Positions 15,785-55,778 of a stretch of 64,000 nucleotides of DNA are shown piece after piece (the stretch's first letter is position 1; each line of letters opens with the position of its first letter). The notes below the pieces were generated by a model. The model was given only the letters and a program-made list of their open reading frames with translations, had not been told where the DNA came from and searched no databases. The stretch comes from Nevskia sp. (lineage in GTDB: Bacteria; Pseudomonadota; Gammaproteobacteria; Nevskiales; Nevskiaceae). Position numbers and translations under genes: made by a program. The DNA lies in assembly GCA_031291075.1 (NCBI GenBank), contig JARLJS010000210.1, positions 1 through 64,000 of the forward strand. Direction: 5' to 3'.

Positions 15785-16606
15785 ATGCTCCAAAAAGCAC
15801 TCCGCTGGGGAATCGTACCGCTGATCCTGGTCTATCTGGCGGCATCCACCGTGCTGTATTTCGAGCAGCGCCGCCTCCTCTACTTTCCGCAGCACACCAG
15901 GACCACGGCTGACCACACCGATTTCGCCCTGGACCGCGACGGGGTGGTGCTGCGCGGCTGGGTGGTGAACCCCGGCCAGGACCACGCGCTGCTTTACTTC
16001 GGCGGCAACGGCGACGCGATCCAGACCATGCGCGACAACTTCCGCCGCTGGGCGCCGGGATGGACGGTATACCTTGTAGCCTACCGGGGTTATGGCGCCA
16101 GCGAGGGCGAGCCGACGGAGCGGGCGCTGTTCGGCGATGCGGTGGCGCTCTACGACGACGTGCGTACCCGCCACGCCGGGATCGGCGCGATGGGGCGCAG
16201 TCTTGGCAGCGGGGTGGCGACGTATCTGGCCTCGGTGCGGCCGATCGACCGGCTCGCGCTGGTCACGCCCTACGACAGCATCGCCCACCTGGCGCAGGCG
16301 AGGTTCCCGCTGTTCCCGGCGGAACTGACACTCAAGGACAAGTACGAATCCTGGCGCTACGCCCCAAAGGTGCGGTGCCCGGTGCTGGTGCTGGAAGCCG
16401 AGCAGGACCTGACCGTTCCCGCCTGGAGCACACAGCGCCTGCTGGGCTTCTTCTCGCCACCGCCGCGGGTGATCCGCATTCCGCACAGCGGCCACGGCTC
16501 GATCGTCGACAGCGCGGACTACGCCGCGGCCGTGACGGCGTTCTGGCAACTAGGGCCTGTTGACCATTACTTTGGCGCTGCCAAAGTAATGGTCAACAGG
16601 CCCTAG
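15785..16606 (+). CDS. Membrane-anchored alpha/beta hydrolase (BEM46/YfhR type)
   Basis: This 273-residue protein has an N-terminal anchor (about 8-24), an oxyanion segment LLYFGGNGDA, and a nucleophile elbow GAMGRSLGSG with the catalytic Ser. The acid and His are likely in LEAEQDLTVP and PHSGHGSI. It belongs to the serine hydrolases related to BEM46/ABHD13/YfhR, whose physiological substrate is unsettled. The final 18 codons and the TAG stop are made entirely of a perfect 27-base inverted repeat, so the tail LGPVDHYFGAAKVMVNRP is probably acquired from an inserted repeat and not native. Confidence 0.85.
   Translation: MLQKALRWGIVPLILVYLAASTVLYFEQRRLLYFPQHTRTTADHTDFALDRDGVVLRGWVVNPGQDHALLYFGGNGDAIQTMRDNFRRWAPGWTVYLVAYRGYGASEGEPTERALFGDAVALYDDVRTRHAGIGAMGRSLGSGVATYLASVRPIDRLALVTPYDSIAHLAQARFPLFPAELTLKDKYESWRYAPKVRCPVLVLEAEQDLTVPAWSTQRLLGFFSPPPRVIRIPHSGHGSIVDSADYAAAVTAFWQLGPVDHYFGAAKVMVNRP
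16550..16606. repeat. Perfect 27-bp inverted repeat, CTAG-bounded
   Basis: Left arm 16550-16576 and right arm 16580-16606 are exact reverse complements around a GCT loop. The outer ends read CTAGGGCCTGTT and AACAGGCCCTAG, identical to the ends of the 24-bp palindrome at 19241-19264. The right CTAG gives the stop of the upstream hydrolase. The stem could terminate transcription from both convergent genes. It resembles a minimal MITE with CTAG target duplication. Confidence 0.9.
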
Positions 16607-18860: not shown

Positions 18861-19244
18861 ATGCTGATCTCGTCCAATACCCTGCGACTTGCATTGTTGC
18901 GCATCTTCGAGAATGCCGGCGCGCGCGCCGGCGACAACCTGCTGTTCCGCGATATCGCCACCGCCTGGACCCGTACCGGGCTGCGCAATTCCGACCTGCG
19001 CGACGCGGTGAACGAGATGATCGAGAGCGGCGGCCTCTGCAGCGGCGACTGCGACGGCGCGCTGGGATTCTCCCTGACCCCCAAAGCCGACCGGCTGCTG
19101 ACCGAGCCCGACGAGGATATGCGGGCGACGCGGGCGGAGGACGAAACCACCCTGTTTCAGGTGCAGTTGCGCGTGCGCGGCGACCTGGACCCGGGCCTGC
19201 GGCGGCGCAACGCCGACCGGCCGCACGTGTCGCCGGTTTCCTAG
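18861..19244 (+). CDS. Hypothetical protein, possible winged-helix fold
   Basis: This 127-residue protein begins with MLISSNTLRLALLRIFENAG and continues with LLFRDIATAWTRTGLRNSDLRDAVNEMIESGGL, which has the helix-turn-helix-wing look of a small winged-helix protein. No DNA-binding family can be named. In-frame GTG (18798) and ATG (18807) starts would add about 20 residues; the ATG at 18861 is chosen because the ordered sequence begins there, but no start has a good ribosome-binding site. The stop TAG is the left CTAG end of the palindrome at 19241, so the tail may be changed by insertion. Confidence 0.6.
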   Translation: MLISSNTLRLALLRIFENAGARAGDNLLFRDIATAWTRTGLRNSDLRDAVNEMIESGGLCSGDCDGALGFSLTPKADRLLTEPDEDMRATRAEDETTLFQVQLRVRGDLDPGLRRRNADRPHVSPVS

Positions 19245-19264
19245 GGCCTGTTAACAGGCCCTAG
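19241..19264. repeat. 24-bp perfect palindrome, CTAG-bounded
   Basis: The sequence is CTAGGGCCTGTT followed by its exact reverse complement AACAGGCCCTAG. It equals the two ends of the inverted repeat at 16550-16606 joined without the interior. The left CTAG holds the stop of the upstream gene, and the right CTAG is shared with the next palindromic element. Confidence 0.9.
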
Positions 19265-19356
19265 AGCATTTTCTCTTTACGTGCACACATTCTTTCCCCT
19301 CTCCCGCACGCGGGAGAGGGGAACAACATGTATGCATCTGAACTAAAGATGCCCTA
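19261..19356. repeat. 96-bp imperfect palindrome, copy C, CTAG-bounded
   Basis: The element begins CTAGAGCATTTTCTCTTTAC and ends CTAAAGATGCCCTAG, with a central hairpin CCCCTCTCCCGC-AC-GCGGGAGAGGGG. The outer arms pair imperfectly over most of their length. Related partial copies lie at 1-75 and 1488-1562. The right CTAG contains the stop of the minus-strand PpnN gene. This copy appears to be the most complete of the family in the window. Confidence 0.88.
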
Positions 19357-20724
19357 GCTGACAACCCGGTAACAGGGCACGTAGTTCGACCCCGCCAGCT
19401 TCATGCGGCGCTGGGCCACGAACGACTTCAACAATGCGTCCATCGGCCGCATGATGGAGACGTCGCCGTGGATCTCGAACAGGCCGTGCTCCTCGACCGC
19501 CCGGATGCCGGCTTCCTTGACGTTGCCTGAGACAATGCCCGAAAAGGCGCGCCGCAGGCCGGCGGCCAGCAGGTGTGGCGGCTGGTCCTTGTGCAGCTCC
19601 AGCGAGCGCATGTTCTCGTGGGTGGGTGCAAACGGCTGCTGGAACTCGGGCGCGATGCGCAGCAGCCAGTTGAAGTAGTAGGCGTCATCCCGCTCCTTGC
19701 GGAACTGGCGCACCTGCCGGATGCCTTCCACCGCCTCCCGTGCGACCTGCTCGGGATCACCGACGACGATGCGGTAGAGGGCCTGGGCATGCTCGCCCAG
19801 CGTATCGCCGACGAACTGATGGATCTGCCGGAAGTATTCGGCCGAATCGCGTGGCCCGGTGAAGATCAGCGGGAAAGGAATGCCGGCGTTGTCGGGGTGC
19901 AGCAGGATGCCGAGCAGGTAGAGGATTTCCTCCGCCGTACCCGCGCCGCCGGGAAACACCACGATCGCATGCGCGGTGCGGACGAACGCCTCCAGGCGCT
20001 TTTCGATGTCCGGCATGATGACCAGGTCGTTGACGATCGGGTTGGGTGACTCGGCGGCGATGATGCCCGGCTCGGAGATGCCCAGGTAACGTCCTCCGCT
20101 CACCCGCTGCTTGGCGTGGCCGATGGCGGCCCCCTTCATCGGCCCCTTCATCGCGCCGGGGCCGCAGCCGGTGCAGATGTCGAGCCCACGCAGCCCCATC
20201 TCGTAGCCCACCACCTTGGTGTAGTCGTACTCCTCACGCGGGATCGAGTGCCCGCCCCAGCACACCACCAGGTTGGGCTGGGTGATCGGCCGCAGGATGT
20301 TGGCGTTGCGCAGGATGTGGAACACCGCGTCGGTGACGCCTTCGGACGATTGCAGATCGAAGCGCGAGGCGCTGCTGAGCTCGTAGCTGACGTAGACGAT
20401 GTCGCGCAGTACGGCGAACAGGTGCTCGCTGATGCCCTTGATGATCCTGCCGTCGACGAAGGCGATGGCAGGCGCGTTCTTCAGCTCCAGCTTGATGCCG
20501 CGCTCGTTCTGCGCAACGCTGATCTCGAACGACTTGTAGCGCTCGAACAGCTGCTTACCGTCGTCCAGGAAGCCGCCGCTGTTGAGCACCGCCAGCGAGC
20601 AGCGGCGCAGCACCTGATAGAGGCCACCCTGGCTGGTATCGAGCAGCTTGTTGACCTCGGACTTGGACAGGATGTCCAGCCGTCCGCTGGGGGAGATGCT
20701 GGCGTCGACGACGTCGTAGTTCAT
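19354..20724 (-). CDS. ppnN: Nucleotide 5'-monophosphate nucleosidase PpnN (LOG family)
   Basis: This 456-residue protein matches the length and layout of E. coli PpnN (YgdH), which cleaves purine and pyrimidine nucleoside monophosphates to a free base and ribose 5-phosphate and is regulated by (p)ppGpp. The LOG core carries VVCWGGHSI, GCGPGAMKGPMKGAAIGHAK and the signature VFPGGAGTAEEILYLLG. Both flanking domains of the long form are present (start MNYDVVDASISPSGRLDIL; end PMDALLKSFVAQRRMKLAGS). The start at 20724 matches the family. The frame is open much further upstream only as a shadow of the divergent gene. The stop lies in the CTAG of repeat copy C. Confidence 0.93.
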   Translation of the reverse strand: MNYDVVDASISPSGRLDILSKSEVNKLLDTSQGGLYQVLRRCSLAVLNSGGFLDDGKQLFERYKSFEISVAQNERGIKLELKNAPAIAFVDGRIIKGISEHLFAVLRDIVYVSYELSSASRFDLQSSEGVTDAVFHILRNANILRPITQPNLVVCWGGHSIPREEYDYTKVVGYEMGLRGLDICTGCGPGAMKGPMKGAAIGHAKQRVSGGRYLGISEPGIIAAESPNPIVNDLVIMPDIEKRLEAFVRTAHAIVVFPGGAGTAEEILYLLGILLHPDNAGIPFPLIFTGPRDSAEYFRQIHQFVGDTLGEHAQALYRIVVGDPEQVAREAVEGIRQVRQFRKERDDAYYFNWLLRIAPEFQQPFAPTHENMRSLELHKDQPPHLLAAGLRRAFSGIVSGNVKEAGIRAVEEHGLFEIHGDVSIMRPMDALLKSFVAQRRMKLAGSNYVPCYRVVS

Positions 20725-55665: not shown

Positions 55666-55778
55666 GGGCGGCTCCTGTACTGGGCGGCGATCGACGGCTG
55701 CATAGCTTACTAGGGCCGGGTAACAAATACTCTGGCGCTGCGTCAGAATGAAGCCCGGCAGATCCCGGAGTTGCCGTC

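Follow-up and report, generated by a model that had tools for sequence, protein, structure and literature searches.

The two palindromes lying end to end between the convergent genes are best explained by non-autonomous miniature transposons of two unrelated families that inserted one after the other, each landing at a preferred C-TA-G site, a reading to which we assign a probability of about 0.87. The left element in the window, the 64,000-nucleotide stretch analysed here, is a perfect 12+12 palindrome with arms CTAGGGCCTGTT/AACAGGCCCTAG. The right element is imperfect and spans 97 bp, one base more than the 96-bp palindrome ending at 19356 that a first-pass annotation had proposed; the CTAG common to both palindromes, and the location of both convergent stops within the outer CTAGs, are seen in the sequence just as that annotation had claimed. 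The arm-to-arm alignment of the 97-bp palindrome scores 21, whereas 97-nt windows placed at 50-base steps across the 64 kb reach 12.5 at most, and either strand folds into a single long hairpin (-47.6 kcal/mol, z -8.98 on the plus strand; -53.3 kcal/mol, z -9.75 on the minus strand), with 0 of 200 shuffles folding as well. CTAG is rare in the window, occurring 28 times in 64 kb versus 272 for CATG and 133 for GTAC.

Table 1. Elements, genes and stop codons in the window.
Feature	Position	Strand	Remarks
Family 2 copy cut by contig start	1..76		End TAGAGCATTTTCTCTTTACGTGCA at 76-53, minus strand
Family 1, 57-bp copy	16550..16606		27-bp perfect arms; supplies last 18 codons and stop of alpha/beta-hydrolase gene 15785-16606
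Small hypothetical gene	18861..19244	+	127 aa from ATG 18861
Family 1, minimal 24-bp copy	19241..19264		CTA plus GGCCTGTT/AACAGGCC ends; the only other copy of this form found in the genome is C69:34915-34938 (L007)
TAG stop of the plus-strand gene	19242..19244	+	Left junction of the 24-bp element
CTAG (TA) common to the 24-bp and 97-bp elements	19261..19264		
Family 2, 97-bp copy	19261..19357		Left end TAGAGCATTTTCTCTT, right end TAGGGCATCTTTAGTT
TAG stop of ppnN	19354..19356	-	Right junction of the 97-bp element
ppnN, pyrimidine/purine nucleotide monophosphate nucleosidase	19354..20724	-	456 aa, full length

Both elements belong to families dispersed through the 5.65-Mb, 302-contig genome. 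Family 1 has the ends TA-GGGCCTGTT and family 2 the ends TA-GRGCATNTT, and neither can be put down to chance, since genome-wide matches far outnumber those to reversed patterns (35 versus 2 for CTAGGGCCTGTT; 93 versus 5 for CTAGRGCATNTTNNNTT with at most one mismatch). The 22-base family-1 end, with up to three mismatches, likewise gives 35 matches and none in the reversed controls. Copies of family 1 in this genome are 24, 55, 57 or 58 bp long or form longer nested hairpins; measured from TA to TA, eight of the nine complete copies span 22-58 bp and the remaining one 271 bp. This last copy (L234:13685-13955, contig C267) has related ends TAGGGTCTGTTAACGC, lies in the T-TA-A stop of a phosphoribulokinase gene and directly precedes the next gene. 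Family 1 has the features of a MITE: its copies are short, carry no transposase gene, have inverted terminal repeats, are numerous and are bordered on both sides by TA with a variable outer base. Joining the outer 12 bp on either side of the 57-bp palindrome at 16550-16606, minus its 33-bp middle, gives the 24-mer, as had been noted before, and the suggestion that the palindromes are deletion derivatives holds to the extent that these two are size variants of one family; it does not extend to the chained pair, which joins two unrelated families. The 24-bp form is probably a deletion remnant, or may be a minimum that is still mobile, and both of its copies have identical breakpoints.

The register of the target site was read from 792 kb of the genome, made up of regions selected around elements and of 20 larger stretches, in which we scored 146 ends (49 of family 1 and 97 of family 2, some of the latter being chance matches) and 35 complete copies (9 and 26, respectively). 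Immediately outside TA, the 70 flanks of complete copies carry C (57), T (10) or G (3); five of the 35 copies have an end that does not read TAG. Because 11 of the 35 carry unlike outer bases left and right, it is TA, and not CTAG, that is duplicated: C-TA-G is the preferred target, and the inner G is part of the element. CTAG, which the first-pass annotation had named as a target of IS5-type elements, is thus the preferred site of insertion and not the duplicated sequence. In the consulted parts of the respective accounts, E. coli IS5 is given a Y-T-A-R target, with CTAG in 15 of 24 listed sites (PMC5493358), while MITEPsy1 inserts at CTAG or YTAA, with duplication (PMC3189936).

The parentage of family 1 is indicated by its relatives, where it takes the form of a 270-284-bp hairpin element whose outer flank bases differ between sides; it is present in 8 of 58 family genomes, the window's genome included. 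Starting from a PF01609 match, we found IS5-family elements of 808-831 bp with identical or near-identical ends in three relatives (G047, G015 and G062), so that the terminal repeats of family 1 are common to autonomous insertion sequences. The end bases of the 831-bp element (L152) are identical to the relatives' MITE form at 18/18 and 16/18 positions, and a piece of it matches the NCBIfam IS5 model NF033580 above cut-off. The 829-bp element (L121) agrees at 16/18 end bases at both ends, its pieces match PF13340, PF01609 and NF033580, and its transposase frame closes inside the IS, while the 808-bp element (L159), assigned solely from its similarity to L121, agrees at 16/18 and 14/18. The family-1 ends of the window's own genome depart from those of the IS5 elements at 2 to 6 of the 18 positions, and no IS5 copy with family-1 ends was found in its 302 contigs. 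As judged from these sequence comparisons, family 1 is in all likelihood a MITE derived from IS5-family insertion sequences. IS630 was rejected as the parent: the DDE_3 matches in the window's genome (L051, L052) have other ends, and family 1 is not classed as an IS630/Tc1 MITE. In one relative (G043), a single TA is common to a 270-bp MITE and an IS5-like copy (L167). A scan of named genomes with the 24-mer of the window's genome returned 0 matches, and a looser family-1 pattern returned 23 stretches, of which 10 are Nevskia MAG sequence, 10 come from Solimonas aquatica and three bear the titles Rhodospirillales, Chromatiales and Bordetella parapertussis MAG, one stretch each; on this basis the window is taken to be Nevskia-like.

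Family 2 is very probably a second, MITE-like family unrelated to the first, with 26 complete copies of 48-319 bp that are short, gene-less and numerous, with inverted ends and a duplicated TA. It was found in 16 of the 58 genomes, where several single matches may be chance (the reversed control gave three), and it reaches many copies in the window's genome, G011, G015 and G001. No parent IS with family-2 terminal repeats was found among the genomes searched. An IS30 parent was considered and rejected: the 1184-bp candidate in G063 (L280:1501-2684) is an IS30-family transposase nested in a family-2-like element, because the 18 related IS30 copies of G060 (L289-L310; 17 aligned to one) show, with ends compared by eye, ends of their own inside CGTC palindromes. 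Such palindromes stand at the edges of most of these 18 copies. A search of Rfam gave only four weak microRNA matches, all below the gathering score.

How two such families could come to share a single TA follows a simple scheme. Family 1 (ends TA-GGGCCTGTTRAC...) would be mobilised in trans by an IS5-type transposase, and both families would insert at TA, duplicate it and favour C-TA-G. Each element begins with G, so entry at the TA of a stop that reads TAG or TAA would leave TAG at the gene border, which would make stop codons harmless landing sites. CTAG, being palindromic, could stop two convergent genes at once, and insertion would keep both stops; one such CTAG in the window, or its duplicate, may then have been hit twice, leaving a chain that shares one TA. 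We infer the order of insertion, the trans-mobilisation and a former single CTAG common to both convergent genes. No other pair among the 146 ends scored in the sampled DNA of the window's genome is joined through a common TA. In essence, this amounts to a testable rule, in which a C-TA-G target and a terminal G mean that every stop-codon hit keeps the stop, permitting harmless spread through a gene-dense genome and explaining palindromes between convergent genes that might be mistaken for terminators.

The coincidence with stop codons extends across the genome. The count, which draws both copies and background sites from the 792 kb described above and relies on gene calls from a home-made codon-usage caller, leaves out six single ends judged to be chance, 12 ends with less than 200 nt of flank and 7 of the 35 complete copies with one short flank. 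Of the 28 complete copies that remain, 15 have a called gene stop at a junction, compared with 39 of 184 element-free CTAG sites (Fisher p 0.0006; the latter comprise 39 stop, 37 coding and 108 intergenic sites), while 214 of 10,613 TA sites overall lie at stops. The excess, for which a genome-wide count had been proposed at the outset, persists when the window's three copies are removed (13 of 25; p 0.002 versus all CTAG). One further element (C38:56689-56781) ends two convergent genes by itself, in parallel to the window. No complete copy (0/35) lies inside a called gene, a weak result in that it sees only genes open across the whole copy and not split ones. CTAG preference and purifying selection account for most of the coincidence, and an approximately threefold odds excess over non-coding CTAGs remains.

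This remainder is what would be expected if the elements or their transposases actively favoured stops or gene ends beyond CTAG preference and purifying selection, for example because DNA is destabilised or transcription ends there, or because the target motif is wider. Against stop-plus-intergenic CTAG sites, the odds ratio is 3.2 (15/28 versus 39/147, p 0.005), or 3.0 without the window's copies (13/25, p 0.012), and counted per end, 48 of 128 lie at stops versus 40 of 294 directions at control CTAGs. However, promoter-side intergenic CTAGs, still present in the control, are probably under selection as well, the gene calls come from the home-made caller, and some element-free CTAGs may be remnants. 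We regard active targeting as unlikely. A broader speculation, to which we would give slightly more room while still doubting it, is that two unrelated MITE families have converged on stops as a niche, in which a G at the element tip makes stop codons, above all the CTAG common to convergent genes, cost-free to land on, and targeting may favour stops beyond CTAG preference, with about half of the complete copies sitting exactly on stops.

Somewhat less likely than active targeting is that the hairpins persist because they terminate transcription in both directions or stabilise the mRNA 3′ ends of convergent genes. The strength of the hairpins and their position at gene ends would suit such a role, and there is one terminator-like match, in which the 24-bp palindrome is followed by AGCATTTTCT, versus 0.3 expected; however, this tail makes a poor U-run, and many copies lie away from gene ends. 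Since the family spreads as mobile copies with target duplication, termination would be a later use.

The first-pass annotation had the elements stopping both genes, which raises the question of whether insertions truncated the genes and created new stops. At ppnN this is contradicted by the relatives. Four congeners carry a full-length ppnN that ends at the same residue with no family end in the locus, so the stop is the gene's own; the congener stops are TAG, TAG, TAG and TGA, and two of the four lie in CTAG without an element, an outcome in favour of the first-pass annotation, which had proposed to compare element-free loci. Elsewhere, 10 of the 18 junction-stop proteins were scanned and five match an NCBIfam model above cut-off and stop no more than four positions short of its end (BioA, PrpB, FadJ, PTS enzyme I and phosphoribulokinase), marking them as full length, while the other five do not decide. 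The base beyond the far TA yields a stop in 18 of 18 complete junctions (TAG in 16, TAA in 2, TAC or TAT in none), though CTAG preference already makes 16 of these expected. The elements thus sit in pre-existing stops and leave them working, and general truncation is very unlikely, even if the 57-bp element does give the hydrolase gene its last 18 codons and stop. Relatives of this hydrolase in G007 and G001 end (TGA and TAA) where the element begins in the window. For the plus-strand gene, a relative in G001 is 52% identical over residues 1-119 and reaches its TAG stop five residues sooner; ppnN of that genome is on a different contig. As the two genes do not adjoin there, the relatives examined offered no intact element-free counterpart of the joint junction; a rearrangement between two elements could have brought them together. 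Least likely of all is that a Y1 (RAYT) transposase moved the palindromes as REP-type elements, a reading that would fit their shortness, the fixed tetranucleotide at their base and the neighbouring hairpin repeats, but not the TA repeated on both sides or family-1 ends equal to those of DDE-type IS5.

Several described elements resemble the present ones in part, and we compare them here from the consulted portions of the published accounts. MITEPsy1 of Pseudomonas syringae is likewise an approximately 100-nt, IS-derived MITE (from ISPsy2) inserting at CTAG or YTAA with duplication, but it has other ends and a 4-nt duplication versus TA here, and no stop-codon pattern appears in those portions (PMC3189936). 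E. coli IS5 belongs to the same transposase family as the parent type of family 1 but, unlike the MITEs here, is autonomous with a 4-bp duplication (PMC5493358). IS870 of Agrobacterium vitis reportedly also requires CTAG, and its junction also makes a stop codon, but that stop serves the element's own ORF1, whereas here it is the host gene's; the MITEs described here are without transposase, and the L121 frame ends inside its IS. The pneumococcal RUP is a MITE that uses a TA target, as here, and is mobilised by an IS transposase, as is proposed for family 1, but with IS630-type ends (PMC2229807). QMITE2 of Coxiella burnetii is a palindromic MITE at gene ends, an in-frame copy of which supplies a C-terminus as at 16550-16606; unlike the elements here, it has 7-11 nt repeats and contains a GTAG REP (PMC5896051). 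Our literature searches, with subscription papers largely outside their coverage, found no account of MITEs that occupy the stop codons of host genes, and the term 'stop codon' is absent from the main text of a MITE review (PMC10969869).

Such elements also show why genomes like this one break up in assembly: the contig ends 76-305 bp inside an element at 14 of the 30 loci of the CTAGGGCCTGTT scan, and many contigs of the assembly end inside hairpins of family 1 or family 2. Not all family-1 copies are harmless, since in G048 (L078) the flanks of one copy read, by eye, as one acyltransferase-like frame. Also by eye, a family-1 copy occupies the same place in two species (L071 and L081; G009 and G015), between an apparent TAG stop and an ATG start, and in the window itself CTAGGGCCGGGTAACAAATACTCTGGCGCTGCGT at 55710-55743 resembles a degenerate family-1 end.
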